Shown here one piece after another: positions 1-21,528 of a stretch of 21,528 nucleotides of DNA; the first letter of the stretch is position 1, and every line of letters begins with the position of its first letter. The DNA is taken from IMG/VR virus record IMGVR_UViG_3300025645_000539, positions 1-21,528 of that record. The stretch is one strand, 5' to 3'. Position numbers and translations under genes: made by a program. This DNA is from a virus. Below the pieces are notes generated by a model. That model was not told where the DNA came from and made no database searches. It saw only the letters and a program-made list of their open reading frames with translations.

Positions 1-405
1 ATCAGTTAATTGGAAGTAACCTGGTTCATCTTCTTTAGATCTTAATCCTTCAATGAAAGTACATAATATACGTAATGCTTTCTCTCTTAACTCATTCTCA
101 TCAGTCAAGTCTTCATCAATCTCATTAAGTGTATCATTCTGAGTGTTAAAGTTAGTATTAACTTCATAACTCAATGTACCTGTATCAACTGATACTTCAT
201 TACATGTTAATGATAGATTGAATGTCAATGATAATGTATCAGCTTCTTCTCCTGCGACTACACTATAAGGATATGTAACTCTCAATGCAGGATATTGGAT
301 ATTAGAATCATTACTCTCATGAGCAAGACCTGTATAGAATCCATTTATCTCAACATGGTCGTTAGCCAAATCTCTTAGCAATATAGTTATATCTTGTAGG
401 GTCAT
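1..405 (-). CDS. Truncated phage protein, possibly tail terminator/neck-type (3' end outside window)
   Basis: I translated this from the sequence. It is an open frame starting at the ATG complementary to 403-405 and still open at base 1, giving 135 residues beginning MTLQDITILLRDLANDH. It starts two bases after the stop of the preceding gene, as in a tightly packed operon. The early segment (HVEINGFYTG, then QYPALRVTYPYSVV) followed by a beta-rich stretch and an acidic helix (NEIDEDLTDENELREKAL) resembles small tail-terminator or head-tail joining proteins of Bacteroidota phages. That resemblance is from memory and weak. There is no signal peptide or membrane segment. The C-terminus is cut by the window edge. 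The reading frame is secure; the function is tentative. Confidence 0.6.
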   Translation of the reverse strand, partial: MTLQDITILLRDLANDHVEINGFYTGLAHESNDSNIQYPALRVTYPYSVVAGEEADTLSLTFNLSLTCNEVSVDTGTLSYEVNTNFNTQNDTLNEIDEDLTDENELREKALRILCTFIEGLRSKEDEPGYFQLTD

Positions 406-407
406 AT

Positions 408-1301
408 CTATTGTTTATTTTGTAGTTTCATATCCTCTGCTTCAGCTGTATCTTTAGATATTGAACAGTTTAAATATTCAAGCACATCAAATAGTGAAGA
501 TTGTTTTACTTCTTTATATGTTCCGAAGACTCCTTTCTCACTTAGATTAGTAAGAGTACCAAGCCAACCAAAGTCTTCATTATGTTTTAACATGTTAACA
601 CTACTGGTTCTTTGACCTCCTTCGGCATTATAGATAAAGTTATGTTTCTTCTTTACCTGATTTATTATATACAATATACGAATATAAATTGGATAGGTTG
701 TCGTAAACGATCTTTGTTTGTTAAATAAATTAAACTTATCATCAAAGTCTTTCATTGACTCTTCCCATTCACCATAGAATAAAGGTAATATAAATCTATT
801 TCCTTTAATCAATTGGATGATCTTTCCATCCTCACCCTTCTCTTGTGAACCTTTACTCATCAATATCTCTAATGTAACCCACTTATAGAAACACCATTCA
901 TTCAATGGTTGTACTTTAAGCTTCGTGTCATTAAGTGTAAAGATAGGGAATTCATTTTCATCATCTATATCAAACGATGTATTTATGTTATTAACTTCAT
1001 TAAATACAGGTTCAAGATATCCTATCAATTCTTTAATTACCTCATCATCTTTAGTATATTTCAATGGTAGGTTAGATAACAGCTTTACAATCTTCCTATA
1101 TAAGTTAATTATAAACTCATCATCTCTCTCAGTCTTAGGTCGTGGTTCTTTTCTATTGACTACTTCTTTACTATGTTGATCAACATAAGTATCATACTGA
1201 TCCTCATTAAGTATATCAGCTACATCTAAGTAATCCATTAAAGTTATCTCATCAATCTTATATCTATAAAGATATACCTTATCATTAATAGTTATTTCCA
1301 T
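408..1301 (-). CDS. Phage protein of unknown function, downstream of terL (tail chaperone-like C-terminus?)
   Basis: A 297-residue soluble protein, acidic in its first third, with no membrane segment. I do not recognise the family with certainty. The last 70 residues contain a pattern (GWLGTLTNLSEKGVFGTYKE, then a segment ending DVLEYLN) that recalls tail-assembly chaperone-like proteins, in which a Trp-containing helix precedes a 'fGsyeeV' segment. This is inference only. It starts one base after the terL stop codon and ends two bases before the next start, so it is almost certainly co-transcribed with terL. The start ATG has an A-rich leader (AAAGATAAT) typical of this genome. No catalytic motif is visible. 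Alternatives are a head-tail or morphogenesis protein. Confidence 0.72.
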   Translation of the reverse strand: MEITINDKVYLYRYKIDEITLMDYLDVADILNEDQYDTYVDQHSKEVVNRKEPRPKTERDDEFIINLYRKIVKLLSNLPLKYTKDDEVIKELIGYLEPVFNEVNNINTSFDIDDENEFPIFTLNDTKLKVQPLNEWCFYKWVTLEILMSKGSQEKGEDGKIIQLIKGNRFILPLFYGEWEESMKDFDDKFNLFNKQRSFTTTYPIYIRILYIINQVKKKHNFIYNAEGGQRTSSVNMLKHNEDFGWLGTLTNLSEKGVFGTYKEVKQSSLFDVLEYLNCSISKDTAEAEDMKLQNKQ

Positions 1302-1302
1302 A

Positions 1303-2541
1303 TTATCTTTGGGTTGTTCTTTTAAATGTTTGAGGTATTATATTAACTATCTTATTTCTATTAAAATTACATATAGCTAACGACATAACACTATCATCAT
1401 GATAACCATTAGATCCTCCATATGATGCATTACCATTCTTATATTCAACAGAGAATGCATCTAACTCATCCTTCAAGTAATCTACACCTAATATAGATAT
1501 GTTATTAGTATTAAAGTCTAATATAAGCTTCTGTATGATATCATTCTTACTCTTCTGTGTTGTAACCCATGGTTTAACTTTACTATACTTCTTCAGTAAT
1601 GTTTCATAAGGCATCTGTCCTACTCCATTAGTTTCAACCCAACATACAGGTGAACCATACTTCTTCAATTCAATTATAACTGAATCAAGTATTATATTCC
1701 ATTCTTGTTTAGTCCATCTATTGATATGTATCAAGTTACCATCACCATCCATTATAGTTAATACAGTGTAGTCTTCCTTGGCCCCTAAGTCTAACCCGGC
1801 AGTAACTCCTTTGGTTCCTTTGTTATCTTTAATACAAGGTATATATCTAAACAATCCATTACCTGCATCAAGGAATTCACCCATATATTCATTCATCCAT
1901 ACAGCTTCAGGTATTCTTTTCTTTATCCTATTTAATATATCTTTAGATATAATACCTCCTTCTTCTGATGTAAACCTTGTTATGAATGAACGATCATCTT
2001 CTATCATTACCATATTGTAAAACCAATTCTTACTCTTAGGTGTAGATGTCAATAAGACCTTACCAAAGTTACCACCTACACCATTGATATCTAACTTACT
2101 TAATGATACTGCGACGGTAGGTTCTATAGCTTCTTGCCATATAATATCTTTTACGAAACAAGCCTCATCCACAACGATGGCATCAAATGTAAAACCACGA
2201 CAATTATCATTTTCAGATGTAAAGAATTGAACAGTAGAACCATTAAACAACGTGATAGTATAACTTACTTTATTAAATTTAACATTATCTTCAAATCCAG
2301 ATAACATCTTCTTCATTCTATTGAATACATTACTACATTGTTTATGCGTTGGTAGGAAGAATCCTACATTATAGTTTTCTTCACTTACCATCCATTTGAA
2401 TGTAGCTAATATATCAGTAGTAGTTTTAGTAGCTTGTCTACCTGTACAAGCTATTACATATTGAATACCGTTACCTAACGTACAAGCTTCTAATATCTCT
2501 ATCTGTTTAGGTGTTAATGTTATACTTAGTTCTATATTCAT
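1303..2541 (-). CDS. terL: Terminase large subunit (packaging ATPase-nuclease)
   Basis: A 412-residue protein with both halves of a TerL motor. The ATPase half has a Walker A-like loop GRQATKTT (about 34-41), a Walker B VVDEA with catalytic Glu126, and a coupling motif TSTP (165-168). The RNase H-like nuclease half has Asp251 in AGLDLGAKEDYT, Glu303 in WVETNGVG, and Asp382/Asp383 in YHDDSV. It pumps phage DNA into the prohead and cuts concatemers. Length is normal for the family. The Walker A loop lacks the usual Gly before Lys (ATK instead of xGK). Its ATG overlaps the stop of the upstream HNH gene as ATGA, which suggests translational coupling. A putative small subunit lies just upstream of that HNH gene. 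The next gene starts one base after the stop. Confidence 0.95.
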   Translation of the reverse strand: MNIELSITLTPKQIEILEACTLGNGIQYVIACTGRQATKTTTDILATFKWMVSEENYNVGFFLPTHKQCSNVFNRMKKMLSGFEDNVKFNKVSYTITLFNGSTVQFFTSENDNCRGFTFDAIVVDEACFVKDIIWQEAIEPTVAVSLSKLDINGVGGNFGKVLLTSTPKSKNWFYNMVMIEDDRSFITRFTSEEGGIISKDILNRIKKRIPEAVWMNEYMGEFLDAGNGLFRYIPCIKDNKGTKGVTAGLDLGAKEDYTVLTIMDGDGNLIHINRWTKQEWNIILDSVIIELKKYGSPVCWVETNGVGQMPYETLLKKYSKVKPWVTTQKSKNDIIQKLILDFNTNNISILGVDYLKDELDAFSVEYKNGNASYGGSNGYHDDSVMSLAICNFNRNKIVNIIPQTFKRTTQR

Positions 2542-3050
2542 AATGTTTGTAATTTACTTTGATAAGCATAATGAGCATCTACTTCATCTACATAAGATCC
2601 TAAATATACTTTATCACCATTTATTCTAATTGTACTGACCCATTTGTTTGACTTCTTACATTTATGAACTCCTGTATATATAGATGTCTTTTTTACATTA
2701 CTCTTAGATGTATTTAACCTTTGTGATACTGATTGTAGATTATTAATATTATTATTAAGTTTATTACTATCAATATGATCAACTACTAAATTATATCCGT
2801 TAATACTATGGTTTAGGAACGTTAAGGCTATTAATTGATGCACCCTAAAAGTCTTACGTTTACCATTTACTTTTAAATCTACCATATAATAACCAGAAGG
2901 ACATATACGCTTACTTAATACTTTACCTTTTATATTATATATTCTACCATCATTATATATAATTTGTCTATTAATTGATCTTATTTCACCTAAATTAGAA
3001 ACTTCATGCGTGTCTACATATCCAGGTACTCCTTTCCATATTTCATTCAT
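2538..3050 (-). CDS. HNH homing endonuclease (NUMOD4-HNH-AP2)
   Basis: A 170-residue free-standing homing endonuclease with three recognisable modules. An N-terminal NUMOD4 DNA-binding segment begins EIWKGVPGYVDTHEVSNLGE. An HNH nuclease core has His71, VDH (90-92) and the downstream Asn-rich stretch NNNINNLQSVSQRLN. A C-terminal AP2-type domain (about 123-164) has the SIYTGVHKCKKSNKWVSTI and YLGSYVDEVDAHYAY signatures. Such enzymes cut DNA lacking the gene and promote their own spread. It sits directly 5' of terL, overlapping its start by four bases (ATGA), and follows a hairpin terminator. Free-standing HNH genes commonly invade terminase regions. It looks intact. The cleavage target is unknown. 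Confidence 0.92.
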   Translation of the reverse strand: MNEIWKGVPGYVDTHEVSNLGEIRSINRQIIYNDGRIYNIKGKVLSKRICPSGYYMVDLKVNGKRKTFRVHQLIALTFLNHSINGYNLVVDHIDSNKLNNNINNLQSVSQRLNTSKSNVKKTSIYTGVHKCKKSNKWVSTIRINGDKVYLGSYVDEVDAHYAYQSKLQTL

Positions 3051-3067
3051 TGTTTTGATATTTATAT

Positions 3068-3121
3068 GTTTTGATAATGTTTAAGAAAGAGGAGTTGCAA
3101 CTCCTCAATCTCTATCAAAAC
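3068..3121 (-). terminator. Hairpin terminator between putative terS and the HNH gene
   Basis: A perfect 18-base palindrome, GAGGAGTTGCAACTCCTC (3089-3106), is followed on the minus strand by the T-rich TTTCTT. An outer inverted pair GTTTTGATA/TATCAAAAC (3068-3076 and 3113-3121) encloses it, and another direct GTTTTGATA lies at 3052-3060 just before the HNH start. It is in the right place to reduce read-through into the HNH-terL genes. The T tract is short and interrupted, so it may attenuate rather than stop transcription. Confidence 0.65.
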
Positions 3122-3127
3122 AGTGTA

Positions 3128-3397
3128 TTAAAATTGTAATGTTATTGTTTTGTTTCTTACTTCTGTTACTGTTGGTAAATTGAACCCTTCCATTACGCAA
3201 ATTTGCTTTATTGCAGATATCTTTTCTGCTGCTTTAACACCTTCAACGCCTGTATTATAATCCAATATTACATCATATAGTTCTTGTAACATCAATTTCT
3301 TGGTGATCTTAGGCTTAACCATCCTCATCTTAGGAGGTGCAATCTCAATCTTATCAACTGAATCTAAGTCATCTTCATTATATTTATCGTCTTTCAT
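3128..3397 (-). CDS. Putative terminase small subunit
   Basis: An 89-residue charged protein. The N-terminus is acidic (KDDKYNEDDLDSVDK), followed by a basic stretch (KMRMVKPKITKK) and a helical region (MLQELYDVILDY, then AAEKISAIKQICVMEGFNLP). The 'AAEKISAIKQI..MEGFN' segment resembles the end of small terminase subunits, where a 'KLKALELLGK..G' helix recurs. Its position in the same operon just ahead of terL, separated only by the HNH gene, supports the assignment. I see no decisive HTH motif, so this rests mainly on context. It starts one base after the stop of the 150-residue gene. Confidence 0.55.
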   Translation of the reverse strand: MKDDKYNEDDLDSVDKIEIAPPKMRMVKPKITKKLMLQELYDVILDYNTGVEGVKAAEKISAIKQICVMEGFNLPTVTEVRNKTITLQF

Positions 3398-3398
3398 A

Positions 3399-3851
3399 TT
3401 ATTCTTTTATAATGTATCGATTATCTAATTCTTTTAACTTTTCAACGATAAGTTCCCACTCATAGAAAGGTCTAAACATCTCATTGAGTAACATCCTCTT
3501 GATGATAGTAGTATTGAATATATCAATGACATACCTTTCATTACTAATGTTACTTTCAACCCATACAGTATATTGTTTATCTTTTAGATCTTCATCATAG
3601 ATTAAGAACTGACAGTATATACCTGAAGCTTCATCAATAACATCAATCAAGTTATCACCTCTATGTGATACTTTCAAATCTATTTGATCAATCTTATCTG
3701 TTAGTATATTACTCTTATGTTCAACATATTGATAAAACAATTCTTGTCCATCTAAGAGTGTGAATGCTAATTCATATTGTTCTGCATTCATTAGGTAGTC
3801 TATCTTGTCGAATACATCTTGTAATGTATCTTCTTTAAAATCGTATTTCAT
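3399..3851 (-). CDS. Acidic protein of unknown function
   Basis: A 150-residue acidic, soluble protein I do not recognise. It is helical at both ends (DVFDKIDYLMNAEQYELAF; LIVEKLKELDNRYIIKE) with a beta-rich centre (YCQFLIYDEDLKDKQYTVWV). There is no signal peptide, membrane segment or catalytic motif. It lies between the GIY-YIG gene and the putative small terminase with a one-base gap to the latter, so it belongs to the terminase operon. Its start codon directly follows the ten-base motif TTAACACGAT, shared with two other genes in this window. Confidence 0.75.
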   Translation of the reverse strand: MKYDFKEDTLQDVFDKIDYLMNAEQYELAFTLLDGQELFYQYVEHKSNILTDKIDQIDLKVSHRGDNLIDVIDEASGIYCQFLIYDEDLKDKQYTVWVESNISNERYVIDIFNTTIIKRMLLNEMFRPFYEWELIVEKLKELDNRYIIKE

Positions 3852-3861
3852 ATCGTGTTAA
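3852..3861 (-). promoter_or_regulatory. TTAACACGAT leader motif, copy 1
   Basis: The minus strand reads TTAACACGAT immediately before the ATG of the 150-residue gene. Exact copies precede two other starts (5177-5186 and 17339-17348). No Shine-Dalgarno sequence is present. It may be a translation-enhancing leader or a protein-binding element. The role is inferred only from recurrence and position. Confidence 0.45.
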
Positions 3862-3869
3862 TTTTATTT

Positions 3870-4457
3870 TTAATATGCATGTTTCCAAATATATCCAGCA
3901 CAGAAAAGTCTTCTACCTGTACAGACCGCTGATATATTAGAGGCAGTTACGTTTACTTCTTTTGCGGCGTGTTTTATTGATTCAAACTCTCTAATAAATA
4001 CATTGTCTTTTGTATATTGTAACACTGATTTGTACTTTAAAGCTCTTGTTTCATTAGATACTATCCTACCTATGTTAGCATTACGTATTTTACTCTTTGT
4101 CTTATTAGACGTCTTATAGTGACTTTTACTTACACCTCCTGTTGTTAAATTATAACCAGAATTAACAGTGTCATAGTGATCTATAATCTCTATTTCTTTA
4201 CATCTTATAATATCCTTTAGTATTGCTTTGTCTATGCTTTCAAACCTAAATAAAACTTCGTAAATAAAGTTGTCATATCCGTACTTACGGATTGCATTAT
4301 AAAACTTAGACTTAAAGTTTTTGAAGTTTACAGTAGCACTATATAAGTGCATATACTTCCTTTTATCCTCATGTATAGTCTCTCCTATATATTTCTTGCC
4401 GTTAATTATATTAGTATAAGAATAAACTATTCCTTCGTGAACTTCTATTACTTTCAT
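3870..4457 (-). CDS. GIY-YIG homing endonuclease (GIY-YIG, NUMOD3, NUMOD1)
   Basis: A 195-residue free-standing homing endonuclease. The catalytic domain has a divergent GIY motif (VYSYTN, 11-16) and the YIG motif (KYIGET, 22-27), basic residues near 32-34, and the family's downstream acidic helix (CKEIEIIDHYDT) ending in GYNLTTGG. It is followed by a NUMOD3-like segment (TKSKIRNANIGRIVSNETR, about 120-138) and a NUMOD1 DNA-binding domain (about 143-193, with VLQYTKDNVFIREFESIKHA and GRRLFCAGYIWKHA). The arrangement is that of I-TevI- and Seg-like enzymes. Its start overlaps the stop of the upstream restriction-like gene by one base (TAATG), so the two are probably translationally coupled. 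It appears intact. Confidence 0.92.
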   Translation of the reverse strand: MKVIEVHEGIVYSYTNIINGKKYIGETIHEDKRKYMHLYSATVNFKNFKSKFYNAIRKYGYDNFIYEVLFRFESIDKAILKDIIRCKEIEIIDHYDTVNSGYNLTTGGVSKSHYKTSNKTKSKIRNANIGRIVSNETRALKYKSVLQYTKDNVFIREFESIKHAAKEVNVTASNISAVCTGRRLFCAGYIWKHAY

Positions 4458-5170
4458 TATAAATTTATTGTAGGGATTTCTTTAGATTTAAATTGGTTTA
4501 ATGTTTTTTGAATTAATGGTTGTTTCTGGATTATATTATTACTATCATAATAAACATAAACCACAGGCTTACCATATAATATATTCTTATCTAAATTTTG
4601 TTTTACAACAGGATGGTTTTCAGCAAAGTTTAAATAAGTCAACGGCTTAACCTGTACTGCGAATATTTCATTATTATTATCATCGTATATGCTCAAATCT
4701 ATAGCATATTTAAAATCCGCAACACTGCTTGCAAGTTCTGCTTTAAAATTGTAACCTAATCTTTTTATAAGACTTTGTAGATTATTCAATACATCGTTCT
4801 CTACCATATTACCTCGTAAAGAGTTACTTACAAATAATGAGTGCATGAAAGTATAGCAGTCTTCCCAATCCTTATATTCAACGTTATTATCTACTTTCTC
4901 CTTGAACGTGTTATATGCCTTAAATAAGCGATCTGCGAACGTTTTAACTGTTCCGGCACTCTTACACCCGCAAGGACAGTTAGCGTGTATATGGCCATCC
5001 TGATGGCTCTCAATCAATGCTGTGAGTTCTGCCTGTTGTTTAGGTGCATGAAATCTAATTAATGCTTGAATAGGAATGGTACGTCGTTTTTGATTACATC
5101 CGTAACGTTCATTTATCATATTCAATACTCCTTTAGTTCCTTCTTGTTTTTTGTGTTTTAAAGTTTTCAT
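4457..5170 (-). CDS. PD-(D/E)XK nuclease resembling MjaI-family restriction endonuclease
   Basis: A 237-residue protein with a plausible PD-(D/E)XK core: Glu124 in RGNMVENDVLNNL, Asp158 in FKYAIDLSIYDD, and Gln173-Val-Lys175 in EIFAVQVKPLTY. The flanking beta strand (KPVVYVYYD, 201-209) fits the fold. The arrangement resembles MjaI-type Type II restriction enzymes, whose prototype cuts CTAG. This family call is from memory and needs a profile search. A CPCGC cluster (65-69) with nearby His may bind zinc. The chosen ATG lies about 37 bases after a good promoter and follows TTAACACGAT; an internal Met18 is a less likely start. No methyltransferase is visible in the window, and CTAG is absent from all of it. 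A Holliday-junction or repair nuclease role is an alternative. Confidence 0.75.
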   Translation of the reverse strand: MKTLKHKKQEGTKGVLNMINERYGCNQKRRTIPIQALIRFHAPKQQAELTALIESHQDGHIHANCPCGCKSAGTVKTFADRLFKAYNTFKEKVDNNVEYKDWEDCYTFMHSLFVSNSLRGNMVENDVLNNLQSLIKRLGYNFKAELASSVADFKYAIDLSIYDDNNNEIFAVQVKPLTYLNFAENHPVVKQNLDKNILYGKPVVYVYYDSNNIIQKQPLIQKTLNQFKSKEIPTINL

Positions 5171-5176
5171 AATTAT

Positions 5177-5186
5177 ATCGTGTTAA
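5177..5186 (-). promoter_or_regulatory. TTAACACGAT leader motif, copy 2
   Basis: An exact copy on the minus strand, six bases before the ATG of the MjaI-like gene and within the predicted 5' leader that starts near 5207. See copies at 3852 and 17339. Confidence 0.45.
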
Positions 5187-5214
5187 GTATATGTGTATTA
5201 TCATTTCGTTAATA

Positions 5215-5245
5215 CAAATATACGTAATAATATAATTACAAACGT
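5215..5245 (-). promoter_or_regulatory. Promoter of the MjaI-like/terminase unit
   Basis: The minus strand has ACGTTTG, then the perfect Bacteroidota -7 box TATATTTG (5222-5215), with 17 bases between the hexamer ACGTTT and the box (TTTG-N16-TAnnTTTG). Transcription should start near 5207, giving a leader of about 37 bases. The 31-base layout matches four other gaps in this window. Confidence 0.7.
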
Positions 5246-5330
5246 AATAAACAATCTAAACTTGTTTTACAATTAATTCGTATTATAAAATATTGATTTA
5301 ATTTTGGTAGTCAGTTTTACAAAAAAGAAA

Positions 5331-5373
5331 GTGTCTACTTTTTTATTAAAGAAATTAACAACAAAGTGTCTAC
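5331..5373 (+). repeat. Paired GTGTCTAC octamers, 35-base period (intergenic copy)
   Basis: GTGTCTAC occurs at 5331-5338 and 5366-5373, exactly 35 bases apart, each preceded by AAA and followed by T-rich DNA. The spacer contains TAAAGAAA. The same arrangement, in the opposite orientation, lies inside the primase-helicase gene at 19780-19822. It lies in the 370-base gap 5171-5539, which has no convincing ORF but also holds two inverted repeats and a promoter. It is a candidate binding site for a phage replication or regulatory protein. Confidence 0.6.
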
Positions 5374-5420
5374 ATTTTACAATATATCACCTGCAACTAT
5401 TTATGAATAATGCAGAATAA

Positions 5421-5455
5421 CCACATCTCCTATATATATACTATAGGACATGTGG
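5421..5455. repeat. Inverted repeat, 14-base arms
   Basis: Arms CCACATCTCCTATA (5421-5434) and TATAGGACATGTGG (5442-5455) pair with one mismatch around a 7-base loop. Neither strand has a T tract after it, so it is a poor intrinsic terminator. It lies in the noncoding gap between the HTH-protein gene and the MjaI-like gene and may be a cis element such as an origin dyad, a packaging site or an RNA hairpin. Confidence 0.6.
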
Positions 5456-5483
5456 TATTTGAGCAGTTATGAATTTATGTTAC

Positions 5484-5534
5484 TTTTTTGGTACACGGAT
5501 CCACTTATACGAAGTCACCTGTGTACCAAAAAAA
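5484..5534. repeat. Inverted repeat TTTTTTGGTACAC / GTGTACCAAAAAA just after a stop codon
   Basis: Perfect 13-base arms (5484-5496 and 5521-5533) enclose 24 bases, within which ACTT/AAGT can form an inner stem. On both strands the T tract precedes and the A tract follows the GC-containing stem, so it does not look like a standard terminator on either strand. It begins five bases beyond the stop of the 339-residue gene and may protect or end that mRNA, or be a DNA-level site. The core GTGTAC also occurs at 6914-6944. Confidence 0.6.
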
Positions 5535-5539
5535 GAACA

Positions 5540-6559
5540 CTATTTATTATGTTTCTTCAATTGTGAATTAACATAACCTCTTGTCACGTCGTAATGCTTG
5601 GCGATATTAATCACGCTGATATTATCTTCCTTGCGCATACGATAAGCTTCGACTACATCAAATTTAATTGATTCAATTTTCTTAGGATTGTCGCTGACCA
5701 TTTTAACGTTTTTACCAAAGAATGAATCTATTTCTTCAGCTTTAATTTCAACAACTTCCTCAACTTTAACTTCTTCGATTACTTCAACTTTAACCTCTTC
5801 AACCAATACTTCTACCGGTTTAATAACTTCAACTACAGGGATAACTTCAACCTGTTTAATTGGTTCTTTGATTGATTGTAAATCTTGTAAGGTTAACATC
5901 TTACGATCAGTGATATACTTCTCAAGTGTAAGTAGGTCTACAGTAACTAAATGTAATGCTTCACTTAAACCTTTACTTTTATACATCTTAGCTTCAGATC
6001 TCATCTTACTTAATGTTTGCATAAGCTTATCATAAGTAAAGAATGGTACATTAAATGTATAGAACTCATCTGCATATTTACCTGAATAGAACATAATTGG
6101 TTCAAATAGATAAGGATATTCAACTTTAACTGCATTCAATATAACTCTTTGGAAGTCGTTGTGGACTCTTGATAAAGTAGTTGTACAATTAGCACATAGT
6201 TTGATACCTGTTACTTTAACAAAGTAATCTTTATAAGGTACTGCGCTGATTAGTTTATTTTCATACTTGTTGACTGTGGCAAAAGCTTCGATTAATTCCT
6301 TCTTTGTTAATGTTCTCATTGTATTTATTTTATAATTATATAAAGCGTTAGCTTGGTTATGTATTATTTTATTTAATTTGAATGGTTTCAACACAAAGTT
6401 GATTAACCATATTAACTTATTAGATGACTCCTTGGTTAATTCATCATATAACAAGTCATTTATGTTATCATTATATAACTTCTCCTTTAAGTCTTGATTC
6501 TCTATAAGAAGGCTATATACTTGTTCTATTAATTGTTCTTTAGTTTTTCTTTTTATCAT
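5540..6559 (-). CDS. Coiled-coil/HTH protein with VEV-rich linker, unknown function
   Basis: A 339-residue protein, not assignable to a family. The N-terminus (1-60) is a charged coiled coil (KEQLIEQVYSLLIENQDLKE). A middle part (about 81-235) contains CANC (122-125). A low-complexity Pro/Val/Glu linker (about 236-282, repeated VEV, VEE and PVEV units) follows, and the last 45 residues look like a helix-turn-helix (DNISVINIAKHYDVTRGYVN). It overlaps the upstream membrane-protein gene by 20 bases and shares its promoter. A second in-frame ATG at codon 81 (6317-6319) opens MRTLTKKELIEAF and could give a shorter product. Likely a DNA-binding protein; the linker suggests two separately folded parts. 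Confidence 0.75.
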   Translation of the reverse strand: MIKRKTKEQLIEQVYSLLIENQDLKEKLYNDNINDLLYDELTKESSNKLIWLINFVLKPFKLNKIIHNQANALYNYKINTMRTLTKKELIEAFATVNKYENKLISAVPYKDYFVKVTGIKLCANCTTTLSRVHNDFQRVILNAVKVEYPYLFEPIMFYSGKYADEFYTFNVPFFTYDKLMQTLSKMRSEAKMYKSKGLSEALHLVTVDLLTLEKYITDRKMLTLQDLQSIKEPIKQVEVIPVVEVIKPVEVLVEEVKVEVIEEVKVEEVVEIKAEEIDSFFGKNVKMVSDNPKKIESIKFDVVEAYRMRKEDNISVINIAKHYDVTRGYVNSQLKKHNK

Positions 6560-6860: not shown

Positions 6861-6887
6861 GTTGGTATGTTTAAATGAATCAATATA

Positions 6888-6918
6888 CAAATATACAACA
6901 ATTATTTAACTAAGTGTA
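6888..6918 (-). promoter_or_regulatory. Promoter of the membrane/HTH-protein unit
   Basis: A perfect TATATTTG box (6895-6888, minus strand) is preceded by TACACTT, with the upstream element one base closer than in the other five promoters of this window. A start near 6881 gives a leader of about 20 bases to the ATG at 6860. The upstream part overlaps the first of two GTGTACAC palindromes. Confidence 0.6.
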
Positions 6919-6944
6919 CACAATAACTTAAAAAGAGTGTACAC
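6914..6944. promoter_or_regulatory. Two GTGTACAC palindromes, candidate operators
   Basis: GTGTACAC occurs at 6914-6921 and 6937-6944, 23 bases apart and each preceded by A. The first touches the promoter's upstream element; the second is part of the tape-measure terminator stem. Spacing of about two helical turns suits binding of a dimeric regulator. No such regulator is identified. Confidence 0.4.
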
Positions 6945-13092: not shown

Positions 13093-13093
13093 A

Positions 13094-14830: not shown

Positions 14831-14833
14831 ATG

Positions 14834-15253: not shown

Positions 15254-15272
15254 CTTTACTTAAGTTTAATAA

Positions 15273-15298
15273 AAGGGACCACTTTTACATGATCCCTT
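15273..15298 (-). terminator. Internal terminator/attenuator after the 132-residue gene
   Basis: The minus strand has AAGGGATCA and TGGTCCCTT, a 9-base stem with one G-U pair and an 8-base loop, followed by TTATTAA. The T tract is modest. No promoter of the shared type lies after it, so it probably lowers expression of the tail genes relative to the two appendage genes rather than ending the operon. Confidence 0.6.
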
Positions 15299-15321
15299 AT
15301 ATATGTTTAATGATTAAATGC

Positions 15322-15720
15322 TTATGCTATATAAGCAACTGCATGCCATACAAACCCATCGCAATACAAAGTAACTGCTTCATATTGAGTTGCAAGACTG
15401 TAGGTAGTAGCGCCATCAATAGTTTCAGCTACATCATCAGGAGTAACAACAACTGATTTAGCAGGACTATCTACTTTCTTAACGGTAATGTAAGCTCCAA
15501 GGCTATCAGCAGCAACAGGAAGTGTAATTACTAAGTTAGAAACTGCACCTGTAGTACCAAGTACGATGTCTCCATCAGCAGCAGTCAAAGCTATATCAGT
15601 AGCGAAAGCAACTGGATTCAATGCTACTATTTGATCAGTTAACACTTGAAGTAAAGTGTAAAGACTTCTTGTATTATTGTTTGTGTTTGTAGAAGGCATT
15701 CCACTGTTTATCTTTGCCAT
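15322..15720 (-). CDS. Small beta-rich virion appendage protein
   Basis: A 132-residue protein. The N-terminal segment (MPSTNTNNNTRSLYTLLQVL) matches the N-terminus of the 422-residue upstream protein (LPATNTATNTKSNYTLIQLL), suggesting a shared virion-anchoring motif. The remaining part (VITLPVAADSLGAYITVKK, then TIDGATTYSLATQYEAVTLY, ending CDGFVWHAVA) is a beta-sandwich pattern often seen at the end of tail or head fibre proteins. It has a 69-base leader with repeated TGTTTAA units and is followed by a hairpin. A decoration protein or a minor fibre are both possible. Confidence 0.72.
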   Translation of the reverse strand: MAKINSGMPSTNTNNNTRSLYTLLQVLTDQIVALNPVAFATDIALTAADGDIVLGTTGAVSNLVITLPVAADSLGAYITVKKVDSPAKSVVVTPDDVAETIDGATTYSLATQYEAVTLYCDGFVWHAVAYIA

Positions 15721-15789
15721 AATGTTTATTGTTTAATGTTTAATGTTTAAATAAAATAATTGTTGTTATTGTAAAAATTATAGTATGAA

Positions 15790-17058
15790 TTATTTAATTT
15801 CAGTTACCATAAAATGTACATCTGTTAAAGTTATATCATTAGCCCCTGTTGTATTAGCACAATGTACTTCTGCATAATCCAAATTAGACATAGTACTTAT
15901 ACATAAAATAGATACGCTCTCAGCACGACCAGATGCGTTACCAGTAGCTTTAGTAACTGATGGTAGACATATACCCGCCTCACTACTAAGATATATACCG
16001 AACTCACATATATTACCATTACCTGAGTTAAATGATATGGTAGCTTGTATTAAATACCTTCTACTAATTGTAGCATCACATGTTAATCTGTTGTCAGTAG
16101 CAGTAAACTTACTATTGTTTGGCCCTAATGTATAAGTACCTGCTGCTTTATAGAATGTATCTATAAGAGATATAGTAGTTGGAGTAATATTATCATTAAT
16201 ATACACTTGTCCTACAGATGCTGTGTTGGCAATAGGGAAGCAGTTAGTGAACAATGCTTTGTCAGATGTATTAATAATACCACTAACATATGTTCCACCT
16301 CCACTAAAGTTAATTGTATCTAAGATATATGATTCAGAAGGTATAGTGGCAGAAGGATCTACATAGATTGCAGTAGTACTTCCAAATGCTACAAAGGATG
16401 AGTAGATAAATCTAATACGTCTTGATACTATTGCTGTATCATTTACACTTATGATATTGTTAGCGGATCCATCTCCAACAAACAAACAACCTGAAACACC
16501 AACAGTACTCATTGTGCCATCAAATATAAACCCATTACTATTTAATATTGCTCCATTAATATAAATAAAGTTTTCGAAGTTCTTTACTACCCCAATTGAA
16601 GGTATGTTTTCAAAGTTTAATGCTTCCCAATCTAATGCACATGTATTACCAAACCCATCAATATCTAAACAAGTATCTACATCCTTAAATGTAATATACT
16701 TTAGAACTATTGTGTTATCACATGTAATAAGTGGTACTCCAACTCCTAATCCTGTAGATGTTATTGAACAGTTCTCAGATGAGTAACCTGTGATAACATT
16801 TGTTGTACCACAAACTATCCTGCAACCCAATAAGTCTATGTTATTAGTTACAACATAAGTCATCCCATCTACAAGAGTGATTACATTTGCAACTTCTTCG
16901 GGGAGATCTTCCTTAGTGTTAACTACAGTTAGGAATGCATCGCTTGTACTTATAGCTCCTTGAAGGAGTTGTATTAATGTATAATTACTTTTTGTATTAG
17001 TTGCTGTATTCGTGGCCGGTAAAGTACCAATATCCACGCCGTTGATTACAATTCCCAT
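15790..17058 (-). CDS. Putative tail fibre/appendage protein (beta-helix plus C-terminal jelly-roll)
   Basis: A 422-residue virion protein in three parts. Residues about 13-34 carry the LPATNTATNTKSNYTL motif shared with the next gene. Residues about 50-285 look like a right-handed beta-helix: short repeating hydrophobic strands with Asn/Asp/Gly turns such as SITSTGLGVGVPLITCDNT and LDIDGFGNTCALDWEALNF. Residues about 291-422 look like a C1q/TNF-type jelly-roll (FYKAAGTYTLGPNNSKFTA, then YLIQATISFNSGNGNICEFG). Such proteins usually bind receptors or surface polysaccharide. No catalytic residues can be assigned. It is first in its unit, about 70 bases after a predicted transcription start. Confidence 0.78.
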   Translation of the reverse strand: MGIVINGVDIGTLPATNTATNTKSNYTLIQLLQGAISTSDAFLTVVNTKEDLPEEVANVITLVDGMTYVVTNNIDLLGCRIVCGTTNVITGYSSENCSITSTGLGVGVPLITCDNTIVLKYITFKDVDTCLDIDGFGNTCALDWEALNFENIPSIGVVKNFENFIYINGAILNSNGFIFDGTMSTVGVSGCLFVGDGSANNIISVNDTAIVSRRIRFIYSSFVAFGSTTAIYVDPSATIPSESYILDTINFSGGGTYVSGIINTSDKALFTNCFPIANTASVGQVYINDNITPTTISLIDTFYKAAGTYTLGPNNSKFTATDNRLTCDATISRRYLIQATISFNSGNGNICEFGIYLSSEAGICLPSVTKATGNASGRAESVSILCISTMSNLDYAEVHCANTTGANDITLTDVHFMVTEIK

Positions 17059-17109
17059 GTTTATATGTTTAATTTATTATGTTAATTATCTATAGTTATT
17101 ATTCATTAT

Positions 17110-17119
17110 ACCGTGTCAA
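17110..17119 (-). promoter_or_regulatory. Degenerate TTAACACGAT motif in the 422-residue gene leader
   Basis: The minus strand reads TTGACACGGT (8 of 10 matches), followed by ATAATG; that ATG would open a six-codon frame MNNNYR. It may be a leader element or an upstream micro-ORF. Evidence is weak. Confidence 0.25.
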
Positions 17120-17134
17120 GTAATTAACGATGAT

Positions 17135-17165
17135 GTAATATACGATATTTATTTTACATAACGGT
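17135..17165 (-). promoter_or_regulatory. Promoter of the structural operon
   Basis: The minus strand has TGTGACCGTT, 17 bases, then TATATTAC. Geometry is identical to the promoters at 20745, 20939, 21315 and 5215. It shares TTTGTGAC with the 21315 promoter and AAATATCGTAT with the 20939 promoter. It lies between the terminator at 17193-17226 and the 422-residue gene. Confidence 0.6.
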
Positions 17166-17192
17166 CACAAACGATCAGGATCCTTAATATAC

Positions 17193-17226
17193 ATTAAAAA
17201 CAGGATACCTTTTAAAGTACCCTGTT
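17193..17226 (-). terminator. Rho-independent terminator of the replication unit
   Basis: On the minus strand AACAGGGTAC and GTATCCTGTT form a 10-base stem (one G-U pair) around an 8-base loop, followed directly by TTTTAATG. It lies ten bases after the stop of the 32-residue gene. Confidence 0.78.
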
Positions 17227-17235
17227 GTAGTTATA

Positions 17236-17334
17236 TTACCAATTAATTGTTACATCGTCAGGTAATTGTATTGTTTTAATTATAAATTGATCAAAGTTAT
17301 AATCATCATCATCATTATCTTTATCCTTTTTCAT
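17236..17334 (-). CDS. 32-residue acidic small protein
   Basis: An ORF I translated directly: it begins MKKDKDNDDDDYNFDQF and ends TINW. It is strongly acidic near the N-terminus and has no membrane segment. Support comes from context: the ATG follows an exact TTAACACGAT motif by four bases, the frame ends ten bases before a strong terminator, and it follows another small gene with a 30-base gap. No homologue is known to me. The Asp run could mimic nucleic acid, but this is speculation. Confidence 0.5.
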   Translation of the reverse strand: MKKDKDNDDDDYNFDQFIIKTIQLPDDVTINW

Positions 17335-17338
17335 TGTT

Positions 17339-17348
17339 ATCGTGTTAA
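17339..17348 (-). promoter_or_regulatory. TTAACACGAT leader motif, copy 3
   Basis: An exact minus-strand copy, four bases upstream of the ATG of the 32-residue gene, matching copies at 3852 and 5177. Confidence 0.45.
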
Positions 17349-17364
17349 GTGTTATATGTATTAA

Positions 17365-17514
17365 TTAAGCTAAGTATTTGTTTAATATATCTAAAGATTC
17401 TGTTAACTTCCTGATCTTTTTCATCAGTTTAGGTTGCTTATGTACTTGTAAATATAATGATTCTATCTTAAAGATTAATTGCTTACGTTTCCATTCAATG
17501 TATATCTGTCTCAT
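17365..17514 (-). CDS. 49-residue basic helical small protein
   Basis: An ORF I translated directly: it begins MRQIYIEWKRKQLIFKIES and ends TESLDILNKYLA. It is Lys/Arg-rich and predicted all-helical, with heptad-like Leu/Ile spacing. The leader contains repeated TTAACAC/TTAAACAC units, similar to other starts here. It lies between the primase-helicase gene and the 32-residue gene in the same unit. The function is unknown; a small nucleic-acid-binding or dimerising protein would fit the composition. Confidence 0.55.
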   Translation of the reverse strand: MRQIYIEWKRKQLIFKIESLYLQVHKQPKLMKKIRKLTESLDILNKYLA

Positions 17515-17561
17515 GTGTTAAGTGTTTAAGTGTTAATAATTAATTGTTTATATATATGGGC

Positions 17562-17589
17562 CGGACTCAGCTTGTTAAGGCCAAGTCCG
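17562..17589. repeat. Hairpin just after the primase-helicase stop
   Basis: CGGACT (17562-17567) and AGTCCG (17584-17589) pair, with an inner CTTG/CAAG. On the minus strand no T tract follows, so it is not a clear terminator; on the plus strand ATTTTATTT follows. It may stabilise or partly end the helicase mRNA. Confidence 0.4.
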
Positions 17590-17599
17590 ACTATTTTAT

Positions 17600-20473
17600 T
17601 TAGAAAGGACAGAAATCAAACTCTTCTTGTTTAGTTTTAATGTATAAGTCAGTGTTTATTGTTAAGTTAGTAGGATTGTCGTTAGTTATTACGAAGTTAT
17701 GAACTACTTTACCATTTGCTCTGACTGATTTGCGTGTTAATGTAAAGAATGTATTAAGTATTTGATTAGCTTTTGTCTTAGTAACATTTGATTTAACTGG
17801 AAAGTGTTTATCAAGGATAATGTTCAACATAGATTGTAACTCGTCTGAAGAATAAGAAGAACCTACATTGAAAGTGTTATAAACATCATTAATATAGTTA
17901 CTTAATTCATTGTTTGTATTTGAAATGAAATCAGACTTAGTACGTAATTTTTGAATATTGATTGCTTTTGTAAATGAAGTCCAAGCTTGTTTAGATAAAG
18001 TAATATTGTCAAGCATTGTGATTGCATTTTTGATGTCTTTATCACCTGAATAGTTAGCTATAACACTTACTTTATAACGAATATCTTTTTCAACTTTATC
18101 GGTGATTGTATTTGATTCAATTATTGATTCATTCGTCCAGATAGATTCAGTACTTAATTGATTCATGATAGCTTCGATGTGTAACTTTTTAGTAGATTTG
18201 TTAAGCTCAACAATGTTTGTGATAACTTGTTTATCTTCTTCAGTCATAACTGTTGTATTATTAACAATGGTAGAAGAAACCCAATCAAATCTTTTCATGT
18301 ATTCAGCCATATAATCAAAGTCAGTGTTAGCAGCATCTTTCTCTAAATTGAATACAACGTTAGACATTGCTAAGTAATCTTCAACTATTTTACCATCAAC
18401 TCTACGGAAATAAAACTTATCAAGGTCATTCATAACTCTCAATTGCTCTTTCATAACATACTTAGAAGATTCAATTGAATTACGTAAAGAAGCATGTTGT
18501 TTAGCTAAGTTAGCAACTTCTTCACAAGCTTCAGTTAAAGAGAATGAACAGAAACCATCAGTTGATTTGTCAGATTTCATCAAGTAAATGTTAACTTCTG
18601 TAGTTACTCTAAAACGAGAAGCGAATTGATTTAGTTCAGCAGGGTGAAAGTTACCATCGACAAAGATATTGATAAGTTTAGCATGCTTTGTGATTGAATT
18701 ACCTTCTTTAATAACTGTAGTTGCAATAATACCTTGACACTTACTCATATCACCGTCGATAGCTATTTCGATGAATGAATCATCATCTTTCTTAGTTGCA
18801 TTGATTGTAACTGTATTGAAGTTGTTAAGACAAGCTTGAATACGACCTAATCTTGTAGTTTCATCAGTATTGTTAGAAAGAACAACGAATTGACCATCTT
18901 TATTTACTGTATCTTGAACACCATCTTGTAATGTTTTATAGAAGTCACTGTAACGAATATCATGTACAACTTTAGTTATTGTAGATGGTTTGGTTACGTT
19001 GATTAACTTCAAGTTATTTAATGTAGGATGAAAGTTAAACAATGGAGTAGCAGTTAACAAGTGGAAGTTTTTAAAGTTACCAAGTAAATCAACTACTTCA
19101 TTAAGTTCTTTCAATAAGAAAGTATGTGATGTAGATGAAGATGTGTTGTGAGCTTCATCAACAAAGAGAGTATAATCAGATATGTTGATTAATTTACAAA
19201 GGTTACTGAATGATTTGTAAGTAGTTACGATAAAGTTTCTGTTAGTCAATTCTTTAGCATCAGCATAAAAAGGACAAGCAGCATATTCTTGAGCAAATTG
19301 TTTTACTAAAGATTGAGTAGGGACAACCATTACACGATTCATTTCTAATTTAGAACCTACATAAAATGATTTACCAGAACCTGTTGGTGATTGAATGATT
19401 GAATTAACACTCAAATCTAAATCTAAATCAGATAACATTTGATCAGCTTGTAATTTGAATGAATCATTTACACTATATTTAATATTTTCGATATTATAGC
19501 TAACTTCAGCAGTACCAAATGAATCAGAGTAAAGGTTGTACATATCATTCAATGATTTACTACGTTTGTCAGTCATATCAAGTGAGTGACCTTTAGTAAT
19601 CAAATAATTATAAGCATCTTTATACTCAACACCGAAAGTAATAGTTGAACCAGCATAAGATTGTAGGAATGTAGTATCGACAATTGAACCGCGTCTTTTA
19701 CATGCAGAGTTATAAGCTATTTTCAAAGCTTTGTCAACTTGAGTTTTTGTAAGAGTTGAGAAATTGAATTTAGAATTTTGTAGACACTTTTTTGAGGGTT
19801 TCTTTATATTAAATGTAGACACTTTTTTTGAAAAACTCCCTACTATATTAAATGTGTCTGCTTGCTCATTTACAAATACTTGATTATCAATGAATAAATA
19901 TACTGGTTGGGATGCACCGACAACATCAAAATAAGAAGCTGGCATATTAATATCATTTGATACTTTTTCGATAACTTCTTTTAAAGCATTTAAATGATTA
20001 GCTTTATCTAAGTTAGAAGTTCTAATTAAAGCTTTAACACCAACCCCTGATGGGCTGATACCTGCCAAAATAACGTAAGGTAATTTAGATAATGATTCTT
20101 TTACAGTTAAAGCTATTTGATCACCGAACTCTTCTTTTGCATCAAAATCTAATTGAACAACACCATTATATTGAAGGTCTTTATTGTTATGACCAACTGC
20201 TTGATATCCACTGAATAAAAAGAATGGAAGGTTAGTTTTTAATGGTGCGATTTCAGCTTTAATATCCTTAATATTACGGCCTTTATTTAGTCCTGTAATA
20301 GTTATGTCGGATATTGATTTATACGAGCTTGTTGGTACTGTATCTTTGATTATAGATACCATTTCAGCTAAATTAATAGCCTGGTTTTTACTGAAAGGAT
20401 TCGTTACTGTTGATGTAGAGTAAGCGAAGGTTAAATTTAAAGTTTCCATTGTTGTATTTTTTGAAGTTTGCAT
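17600..20473 (-). CDS. Primase-helicase fusion (BT4734/VirE-N-like primase domain plus SF2 helicase)
   Basis: 957 residues. The N-terminal third looks like a BT4734/VirE N-terminal domain of the archaeo-eukaryotic primase type: LDFDA (108-112) supplies the acidic pair, SPSGVGVKALI (140-150) the 'SGxGxK' motif, and FDVVGASQPVYLF (182-194) the downstream signature. After a Lys-rich linker (about 205-240) comes a superfamily 2 helicase: Walker A SPTGSGKS (362-369), FVDEAHN (437-443), LTATP (473-477) and QFASRFR (615-621). The last 300 residues are unassigned. It probably primes and unwinds phage DNA. The linker contains the tandem peptides DTFNIVGSFSKK and STFNIKKPSKK, encoded by DNA holding two GTGTCTAC sites. 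A second ATG eight codons in is an alternative start. Confidence 0.85.
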   Translation of the reverse strand: MQTSKNTTMETLNLTFAYSTSTVTNPFSKNQAINLAEMVSIIKDTVPTSSYKSISDITITGLNKGRNIKDIKAEIAPLKTNLPFFLFSGYQAVGHNNKDLQYNGVVQLDFDAKEEFGDQIALTVKESLSKLPYVILAGISPSGVGVKALIRTSNLDKANHLNALKEVIEKVSNDINMPASYFDVVGASQPVYLFIDNQVFVNEQADTFNIVGSFSKKVSTFNIKKPSKKCLQNSKFNFSTLTKTQVDKALKIAYNSACKRRGSIVDTTFLQSYAGSTITFGVEYKDAYNYLITKGHSLDMTDKRSKSLNDMYNLYSDSFGTAEVSYNIENIKYSVNDSFKLQADQMLSDLDLDLSVNSIIQSPTGSGKSFYVGSKLEMNRVMVVPTQSLVKQFAQEYAACPFYADAKELTNRNFIVTTYKSFSNLCKLINISDYTLFVDEAHNTSSSTSHTFLLKELNEVVDLLGNFKNFHLLTATPLFNFHPTLNNLKLINVTKPSTITKVVHDIRYSDFYKTLQDGVQDTVNKDGQFVVLSNNTDETTRLGRIQACLNNFNTVTINATKKDDDSFIEIAIDGDMSKCQGIIATTVIKEGNSITKHAKLINIFVDGNFHPAELNQFASRFRVTTEVNIYLMKSDKSTDGFCSFSLTEACEEVANLAKQHASLRNSIESSKYVMKEQLRVMNDLDKFYFRRVDGKIVEDYLAMSNVVFNLEKDAANTDFDYMAEYMKRFDWVSSTIVNNTTVMTEEDKQVITNIVELNKSTKKLHIEAIMNQLSTESIWTNESIIESNTITDKVEKDIRYKVSVIANYSGDKDIKNAITMLDNITLSKQAWTSFTKAINIQKLRTKSDFISNTNNELSNYINDVYNTFNVGSSYSSDELQSMLNIILDKHFPVKSNVTKTKANQILNTFFTLTRKSVRANGKVVHNFVITNDNPTNLTINTDLYIKTKQEEFDFCPF
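19780..19822 (-). repeat. Paired GTGTCTAC octamers, 35-base period (copy inside primase-helicase gene)
   Basis: Minus-strand GTGTCTAC at 19815-19822 and 19780-19787, exactly 35 bases apart, with TAAAGAAA in the spacer as in the gap copy at 5331-5373. A third, inverted and imperfect copy (GTGTCTGC on the plus strand) starts at 19854. The DNA encodes a Lys-rich interdomain linker, where coding constraint is low, so the sequence may be kept for a DNA-level role. Confidence 0.6.
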
Positions 20474-20484
20474 TTTGAATTGTT

Positions 20485-20709
20485 TTATTTTGTTAATTGC
20501 GTAAGCGTTTGTTTTATAATCTCAATTGTATAATTATTCAATTCTATTTTATCTATCTTATCAATCCCTCCAGCTTTATATAGCTTTGATCTAAAAGTAT
20601 CTATATTCATTCCTATAACGAATGCTGCACCGTATTGGCTTGATATGATATTGTTTTCGACTTTATAATATACGTCTTTCATTGTTGATTGTGTTATTTG
20701 TGGATACAT
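20485..20709 (-). CDS. 74-residue small protein, paralogue of the 62-residue protein; HTH-like
   Basis: Residues about 24-66 (SQYGAAFVIGMNIDTFRSKL, then YKAGGIDKIDKIEL) align without gaps to the 62-residue protein at 21013-21201. Shared features are a helix, 'f/lR.Kl/i', GG(I/V).K(I/L)D and a final IxIIK/VKIVK strand. The 'igm..dtfRsKLyk.GG' portion looks like a small helix-turn-helix. It has its own promoter (20745-20775) and ends 11 bases before the primase-helicase gene. A DNA-binding regulator is plausible but not shown. Confidence 0.65.
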   Translation of the reverse strand: MYPQITQSTMKDVYYKVENNIISSQYGAAFVIGMNIDTFRSKLYKAGGIDKIDKIELNNYTIEIIKQTLTQLTK

Positions 20710-20744
20710 GAGTTATTAATTTAATTAATGTTTTTATGATACTA

Positions 20745-20775
20745 TAAAGATAAGGATTTAATTTTTAATAGATGT
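20745..20775 (-). promoter_or_regulatory. Promoter of the 74-residue/primase-helicase unit
   Basis: The minus strand has TGTAACATCT, 17 bases, then TATCTTTATAG. The predicted start near 20738 gives a leader of about 30 bases. It shares TATCTTTATA with the promoter at 20939 and ACATCT with that at 21315. Confidence 0.62.
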
Positions 20776-20811
20776 TACAATCACTCCAAAGTAGAAATTT
20801 AATTGTCTTTA

Positions 20812-20849
20812 GTTTAAAATAAAGGTGAGAATATTTCACCCACCTTTAT
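20812..20849 (-). terminator. Terminator of the candidate small RNA
   Basis: On the minus strand ATAAAGGTG and CACCTTTAT form a 9-base stem (extendable by G-U and G-C pairs) followed by TTTTAAAC. It lies about 85 bases after promoter 20939, with no ORF between. Confidence 0.75.
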
Positions 20850-20932
20850 AAAAATATCAACTGGAAATGATTAGGTAGTCATCACTCTATTATTCCTAAC
20901 CTTTATTTTTTAATGTATTATTATCTCTTTCT
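20812..20932 (-). ncRNA. Candidate small RNA, about 100-120 nt
   Basis: The promoter at 20939-20969 points into this segment and a terminator closes it at 20812-20849. No frame between them exceeds nine codons; the only ATG opens MTT then a stop. The predicted RNA has a 5' stem GGTTAGG/CCTAATC (7 pairs, one G-U) around a 19-base loop, then the terminator hairpin. It lies between the two paralogous small-protein genes. Alternatively it is only a leader or trailer region of its neighbours. It is inferred from sequence only. Confidence 0.5.
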
Positions 20933-20938
20933 ATAATA

Positions 20939-20969
20939 TAAAGATACGATATTTAAATTAAACAAATGT
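20939..20969 (-). promoter_or_regulatory. Promoter of the candidate small RNA
   Basis: The minus strand has ACATTTG, a spacer, then TATCTTTATA (TTTG-N16-TAnnTTTA, one mismatch to the Bacteroidota consensus). Geometry is the same as the four other 31-base promoters. Confidence 0.65.
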
Positions 20970-21012
20970 CGGTCATTTCAAAAAGTGATGAAATAATTAC
21001 ATTTATTTTCAT

Positions 21013-21201
21013 TTATTTATAGAATTTAACTATTTTCACCTCTTTTTCACCTATTGTAAAACTATCCAACTTCCCAACTCCACCTAAACGATGTATTTTT
21101 GTACGTAATGCTGAAGGTGTAATAGATACAGCGTGCGCCAAAACTACTTGGTTAGGATAGTATGAGCGTCCTATTTTATATAATGTTCCTATGAGTTCCA
21201 T
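21013..21201 (-). CDS. 62-residue small protein, paralogue of the 74-residue protein; HTH-like
   Basis: Starts MELIGTLYKIGRSYYPNQVV. The segment LAHAVSITPSALRTKIHRLG looks like a helix-turn-helix with SITPSALR as the turn and start of the recognition helix, followed by GGVGKLDSFTIGEKEVKIVK. It aligns without gaps to the 74-residue protein downstream. Its start overlaps the end of the 26-residue peptide gene by 13 bases, so translation is probably coupled, and both use the promoter at 21315. Likely a small DNA-binding regulator; this is inference. Confidence 0.62.
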   Translation of the reverse strand: MELIGTLYKIGRSYYPNQVVLAHAVSITPSALRTKIHRLGGVGKLDSFTIGEKEVKIVKFYK

Positions 21202-21269
21202 TCTTTAATCTTTTTTTCAAGGTAAGTAAATATGAATAATGCTAAAACGATGTCGATAATGATTGCCAT
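21189..21269 (-). CDS. 26-residue hydrophobic peptide
   Basis: An ORF I translated directly: MAIIIDIVLALFIFTYLEKK followed by IKEWNS. It has one hydrophobic helix of about 16 residues and a charged C-terminal tail, as in small single-span membrane peptides. The ATG lies about 40 bases after a predicted transcription start and the stop lies inside the next gene. It could be a real small membrane protein or a leader peptide whose translation opens the 62-residue gene. Confidence 0.5.
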   Translation of the reverse strand: MAIIIDIVLALFIFTYLEKKIKEWNS

Positions 21270-21314
21270 GATAATTAATTTAATAATGTTATTGTTCTGT
21301 GTTTTATTGTACCT

Positions 21315-21345
21315 CTAAGATACAACATATTTGTAATACAGATGT
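21315..21345 (-). promoter_or_regulatory. Promoter of the 26/62-residue unit
   Basis: The minus strand has TTTGTGACATCT, 17 bases, then TATCTTAG. TTTGTGAC is shared with the promoter at 17135 at the same distance from its -7 box. Confidence 0.6.
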
Positions 21346-21377
21346 CACAAAGAATTAAAACATGTAATATAAATTGA

Positions 21378-21524
21378 TTATTTACAATAAAACTTATGAC
21401 GCGCCTTGATTAAGAATTTAGATTTAATATGAGGAGGACGGTTATAATACCTTTTGAATGAATGGAAATATAACACGTCATTGTCAAGCTTGTATTCGGC
21501 CGGTATTACGTCGTATATGACCAT
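21378..21524 (-). CDS. Small or truncated basic protein at the window edge
   Basis: A 48-residue frame from the ATG at 21522-21524: MVIYDVIPAEYKLDNDVLYF, then HSFKRYYNRPPHIKS, ending KARHKFYCK. The frame is open to the window edge, so it may be the C-terminal end of a longer gene. The C-terminal half is strongly basic and aromatic, suggesting nucleic-acid contact. It ends about 30 bases before the next promoter. I do not recognise a family. Confidence 0.45.
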   Translation of the reverse strand: MVIYDVIPAEYKLDNDVLYFHSFKRYYNRPPHIKSKFLIKARHKFYCK

Positions 21525-21528
21525 ATAA

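Follow-up and report, generated by a model that had tools for sequence, protein, structure and literature searches.

The IMG/VR record IMGVR_UViG_3300025645_000539 is a viral DNA stretch of 21,528 bases (hereafter the window, analysed at its full length) from which the tetranucleotide CTAG is absent, and which encodes a divergent relative of MjaI, the CTAG-cutting restriction enzyme of Methanocaldococcus jannaschii. The open reading frame (ORF) of this putative nuclease is intact, and its stop codon overlaps the start of the adjacent GIY-YIG/NUMOD1 gene (TAATG). The features discussed here are collected in Table 1. As the window is a linear fragment of a tailed-phage genome, with larger related records of 28–33 kb, the absence of CTAG and of a methyltransferase described below applies to these 21.5 kb only, not to a complete genome.

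Table 1 Features of the window and the evidence for each.
Feature	Position	Strand	Evidence
Phage contig without CTAG; the entire IMG/VR record, part of a tailed-phage genome	1..21528		0 CTAG against 48–74 expected
Terminase large subunit, 412 amino acids (aa); query for related phages	1303..2541	-	Pfam Terminase_6N; PHROG 2, E 8e-34
HNH homing endonuclease-like protein with NUMOD4	2538..3050	-	Pfam NUMOD4, 45.6 bits; HNH_3
GIY-YIG-type homing endonuclease-like protein, NUMOD1 / I-HmuI NUMOD	3870..4457	-	NCBIfam TIGR01453, 63 bits; Pfam NUMOD1
Divergent RE_MjaI-family (PF09568) PD-(D/E)XK-type nuclease, 237 aa; putative lone restriction endonuclease	4457..5170	-	Pfam, hhalign, alignment
Probable tape-measure protein, 1090 aa	6987..10259	-	Inferred from length, composition and position; no family match
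Primase/helicase-like protein with BT4734-like N-terminal domain	17600..20473	-	Pfam PF08800, 37.6 bits

The absence of CTAG is real. The count is zero on both strands, as the original prediction had read by eye, and its estimate of roughly 50 occurrences expected by chance was sound: a maximal-order Markov model using the counts of CTA, TAG and TA gives 48.3 (z = -8.1), base composition gives 60.4 and dinucleotide shuffles give 74.4 ± 8.5. CTAG is the sole absent tetramer among the 256, so the other four-base palindromes do occur as claimed, the next most depleted being CATG (46 against 82 expected). The related tetramers said to be common are plentiful (CTAA 145, CTAC 79, CTAT 147, TTAG 139 and GTAG 83), and ATAG is found 108 times. 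Biased codon usage or protein content was ruled out as the source of the gap by synonymous codon permutation of the 17 coding sequences, which gave an expectation of 31.7 ± 4.8 CTAG, the lowest count among 500 permutations being 18. In the three endonuclease genes alone only 1.9 occurrences are expected (P(0) = 0.12), too few to judge the adaptation of these mobile-looking genes by themselves.

The resemblance of the nuclease to MjaI was borne out, albeit remotely. The protein scores 26.8 bits against the Pfam family RE_MjaI (PF09568), a weak match above the gathering cut-off of 22.7, compared to 80–236 bits for most members from Bacteroidota. Using hhalign, it was matched to subfamily B of the Bacteroidota proteins with 95% probability over 183 colinear columns at 23% identity; profile comparison gave 73.5% for subfamily C and no real match to subfamily A. 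In an alignment of 45 sequences the putative catalytic residues D158 and K175 are retained together with P176, which fits the family motif D...(Q/S)xK-P, and with the preceding helix and strands they resemble a PD-(D/E)XK core. The original prediction had called for a profile or AlphaFold comparison with MjaI: the profile places the protein in the family, whereas the structural model is poor, with a mean predicted local distance difference test score of 52.9 (66–83 in the core, where helices and strands follow the order expected for a PD-(D/E)XK core), and its top match in the PDB, a restriction-endonuclease-like protein, lies below significance (E 0.027, probability 0.90). Searched by sequence, the MjaI family gave only chance-level hits to solved structures. 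Single-protein scans of viral and genome collections returned no close relatives of the nuclease, annotated phages and plasmids gave no match, and neither did a profile of the window protein set against 38 relatives, a comparison run without a positive control. On the sequence evidence we accept the protein as a remote member of RE_MjaI.

We also see that it departs from the family at otherwise conserved positions. A Trp and a Tyr that are present in 44/44 homologues are replaced by L49 and I53 in the window protein, alone among the 45 sequences, and the N-terminal Val-Gly, which like the W-x3-Y motif is conserved in 95–100% of the 44 members, has become T31-I32. The protein also carries a Cys-rich insert (HANCPCGCK). 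Because residues found in every compared homologue are missing, CTAG specificity is uncertain and unproven for this divergent protein. The claim that the enzyme comes without a methyltransferase stands for this genome fragment: no methyltransferase domain was detected in any searched window ORF, and the sequence covers both flanks of the nuclease gene.

Two homing-type endonuclease genes (HNH/NUMOD4 and GIY-YIG/NUMOD1) are inserted next to the nuclease and terminase genes, the former overlapping the start of the terminase gene; a search for known RNA families beside them, such as a group I intron, detected none. The host probably belongs to the Bacteroidota. This is suggested by the BT4734-like domain of the helicase, by the top cellular matches of the terminase, which are two contigs of a Flavobacteriaceae metagenome-assembled genome (MAG) and a Chitinophagaceae MAG, and by the lack of Shine-Dalgarno motifs in the inspected start regions.

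Single-protein scans of the viral and genome collections with the terminase or the helicase found no close relatives, and the comparison set therefore consists of 80 viral contigs from a terminase-alignment scan, with terminase identities of 32–39% in the scan and of no more than 41% overall. Among these contigs CTAG occurs at 0 to 1.2 times the expected frequency, and it is entirely missing from 34 of them; five records of 29.9–33.2 kb that were read whole contain zero CTAG. A search for PF09568 in all 80 whole records gave no match. The original prediction had proposed testing whether relatives lacking the nuclease regain CTAG, and had named equal depletion in such relatives as evidence against its idea; equal depletion is what we find. 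With 34/80 relatives CTAG-free and PF09568 in none of the 80, the loss of CTAG can be explained without the nuclease, and a causal tie between the two in the window phage is not supported. As phages of this group are CTAG-free about 40–50% of the time without the nuclease, the co-occurrence in the window is weak evidence, worth a factor of about two.

Among the 70 testable contigs of this set, CTAG is the palindrome most often purged, defined here as below 10% of the composition expectation: it is purged in 35, compared to 17 for GATC, 16 for ACGT, 14 for TCGA and 13 for CATG, and further palindromes are also lost in some contigs. On a terminase tree, the CTAG-free state requires at least 13 changes on well-supported branches. 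Several potentially competing phages are CTAG-rich, for example contig L013 with 63 CTAG in 10.8 kb. An extreme multi-site purge was seen in IMGVR_UViG_3300046167_000134 (31,168 bases), which has no MjaI-type nuclease and lacks 8 of the 16 palindromic tetramers (ACGT, CATG, CCGG, CGCG, CTAG, GATC, GGCC and TCGA). In IMGVR_UViG_3300032220_000468 (30,055 bases), CATG, CCGG, GATC and GTAC are absent and ACGT, CTAG, TCGA and TGCA are nearly so. In two other CTAG-free records (L022 and L040) CTA and/or TAG are themselves rare, such that the Markov model expects about 8 CTAG compared to about 112 by composition; here avoidance reaches beyond the tetramer.

PF09568 was found in 62 of 395 sampled Bacteroidota genomes (16%), in three subfamilies of about 195 (A), 215 (B) and 232 (C) aa, and a TSPPY methyltransferase motif lies within 2.5 kb of the nuclease gene in 39/41 host loci. 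The observed/expected ratio (O/E) of CTAG in genome stretches of carriers is 0.19 for A, 0.26 for B and 0.20 for C, compared to 0.55 in 39 non-carriers (Mann-Whitney P 2e-3, 4e-4 and 8e-4, respectively, statistics that ignore phylogeny). In carriers of subfamilies A and B hardly any palindrome other than CTAG is lower than in non-carriers, and subfamily C carriers show reduced GATC, GGCC and AGCT as well, which suggests several restriction–modification (R-M) systems together or a lineage effect. The depletion in carriers of all three subfamilies supports CTAG specificity across the PF09568 family, and host restriction pressure is a sufficient cause of CTAG loss.

A precedent for a lone enzyme of this family in a CTAG-free phage was found elsewhere, in cyanophages. 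Subfamilies B and C gave no hits in viral scans, and a scan with subfamily A gave 34 viral contigs with MjaI-type enzymes. In 27 of these a PF01555 methyltransferase is present, in every case near the nuclease, and CTAG O/E runs from 0 to 1.1; such methyltransferase-bearing phages usually keep some CTAG. Six contigs without PF01555 hold 4 CTAG compared to 75 expected, and a seventh (L329), truncated at the enzyme, was excluded. The six were rejected as separate cases, as they share one locus and represent one lineage, that of Synechococcus phage S-SM2. The complete S-SM2 genome (GU071095.1, 1-190789) has 0 CTAG in 190,789 bases, where 287 would be expected in 190,000 bases, and encodes a canonical subfamily A enzyme (SSM2_066, 158.9 bits); a search of the genome for the methyltransferase families PF01555, PF02086 and PF00145 found none. 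Within the lineage the enzyme is under purifying selection, with a ratio of nonsynonymous to synonymous substitution rates (dN/dS) of 0.07–0.11 at dS 0.3–0.8. In 50-kb stretches of cyanophages carrying both enzyme and methyltransferase, CTAG O/E is 0.11 for S-RIM32, 0.22 for S-CAM3 and 0.15 for S-H9-2, and in six cyanophages without the enzyme it is 0.74–0.92, absence being judged by a tblastn search of the collection that took the S-SM2 enzyme as query and had hits listed in S-SM2, S-H9-2, S-RIM32 and S-CAM3 only. In the same kind of stretch CCGG occurs 0–1 times in each of the nine examined cyanophages other than S-SM2, which keeps 35–52% of expectation. No report on CTAG in cyanophages, or on lone phage enzymes with absent sites, was found in the partial literature that is searchable. 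S-SM2 is thus a strong precedent for a lone MjaI-type enzyme in a CTAG-free phage, and arguably a cleaner case than the window.

We consider it probable that the absence of CTAG from the window reflects restriction-site avoidance under CTAG-cutting nucleases, chiefly the PF09568 R-M systems of Bacteroidota hosts, and that a divergent, methyltransferase-free nuclease was then tolerable. The phage lineage would have been exposed to such host nucleases until every CTAG was gone, and a genome in this state could safely harbour an MjaI-family nuclease without its methyltransferase, beside a GIY-YIG homing endonuclease gene. Provided that CTAG is still its target, the nuclease would attack the DNA of the host or of competitor phages, while the phage is immune through erasure of the site. 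We infer both the order of events, with CTAG lost first and the nuclease gained later or independently, and the activity, specificity and use of the nuclease. Avoidance of a host CTAG system, which the original prediction had listed as its alternative, fits better than loss driven by the phage's own nuclease does. The overall interpretation first offered is partly supported: the absence of CTAG, the remote MjaI relationship and the lack of a nearby methyltransferase all stand, whereas the causal tie in this phage is not supported. The specific proposal that complete site removal confers an immunity under which the phage can turn a methyltransferase-free CTAG nuclease, as a weapon, on host DNA and co-infecting phages is possible but tentative.

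Several points weigh against this explanation. The loss of the invariant Trp and Tyr was noted above, and the host is identified by indirect signs only. The terminal branch of the window on the terminase tree is 2.8 long, its relatives are distant enough that 'same clade' is a loose term, and several of them are near-copies of one another. The host comparison is not clean, as some PF09568-negative Bacteroidota are likewise low in CTAG, and bacteria avoid no tetramer more than this one, which is underrepresented in 55% of prokaryote genomes whether or not R-M is involved (PMC4687349).

The strongest rival, which is quite conceivable though we would not call it probable, is that the pairing is a coincidence: CTAG was lost to host restriction only, and the nuclease is inactive or has another specificity, for example having evolved from an MjaI-type enzyme into a nuclease for homing or for host DNA. 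The missing Trp, Tyr and Val-Gly, the low family score, the frequent loss of CTAG in nuclease-free relatives and the homing-type neighbours all fit this account, whereas the intact ORF, the D..(V)K motif and the full-length colinear match to subfamily B do not. We are more doubtful of a role of the nuclease itself in causing or maintaining the loss, as an active lone CTAG cutter that kills CTAG-bearing progeny and serves as a weapon, which is what we propose for S-SM2. Membership of the MjaI family with catalytic Asp and Lys retained, the tie of three diverged Bacteroidota subfamilies to CTAG depletion, the graded cyanophage series and the low dN/dS of the S-SM2-lineage enzyme speak for such an effect. 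However, nuclease-free terminase relatives are equally CTAG-free, so the odds are raised only about twofold; the invariant residues are missing here; and the S-SM2 lineage is a single event, within which 2 CTAG are present in each of two metagenomic sister contigs.

It is unlikely that the window belongs to a complete R-M system with its cognate methyltransferase encoded beyond the sequenced fragment. Related records do reach 28–33 kb, and the two genes co-occur in hosts and in most phages with the family, but where both are present the methyltransferase lies near the nuclease (39/41 host loci and 27/27 methyltransferase-bearing phage records), whereas none lies on either side here, and methyltransferase-bearing phages usually keep some CTAG. 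General structural or mutational avoidance unrelated to restriction is highly improbable despite the widespread underrepresentation of CTAG in bacteria, since total loss is not universal but switches repeatedly among the terminase relatives, 20 kb of the related Flavobacteriaceae MAG contain 37 CTAG where 40 are expected, and as many as eight palindromes are missing together from some relatives, a signature of restriction avoidance.

Compared to known systems, the window protein is like the MjaI family in its full-length colinearity, in D158 and K175-P176 and in the strand and helix order of the AlphaFold model, and unlike it in its low score, its missing invariant residues, its Cys-rich insert and the lack of a methyltransferase in the window. 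The CTAG R-M systems of Bacteroidota combine the same nuclease family with a TSPPY methyltransferase in the same presumed host phylum, but nearly always with the methyltransferase motif nearby. S-SM2 shares with the window a phage-borne PF09568 enzyme, no methyltransferase and a CTAG-free sequence; it differs in its canonical subfamily, its complete 190.8-kb genome and its enzyme-free comparators, which are CTAG-normal where those of the window are not. PacI is a bacterial enzyme with a rare 8-bp site. It is a solitary restriction enzyme of Pseudomonas alcaligenes, tolerated since the genome is without its sites (PMC3488263), whereas the window presents a 4-bp site in a phage. Loss of palindromes recognised by host R-M systems is well documented in phages (PMC6286503), but in the window the loss is complete and accompanied by a phage-encoded relative of the would-be CTAG cutter.

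Lone restriction enzymes are normally lethal, and are rare in phages (12 in 831 phage genomes; PMC4176335). If a phage removed a four-base site from its whole genome and then kept the matching nuclease, it would be protected without a modification enzyme and could restrict its competitors. A second, divergent example of the S-SM2-type arrangement may be present in the window; if so, the two would be independent instances, in different phage groups, host phyla and nuclease subfamilies, of genome composition replacing the modification enzyme. The cyanophage contrast, in which CTAG is zero with a lone enzyme, partial with enzyme and methyltransferase and normal with neither, makes the idea of site erasure directly testable, and in the terminase-related phages the recurrent, switchable loss of CTAG preserves a natural trace of the restriction pressure on environmental Bacteroidota phages.

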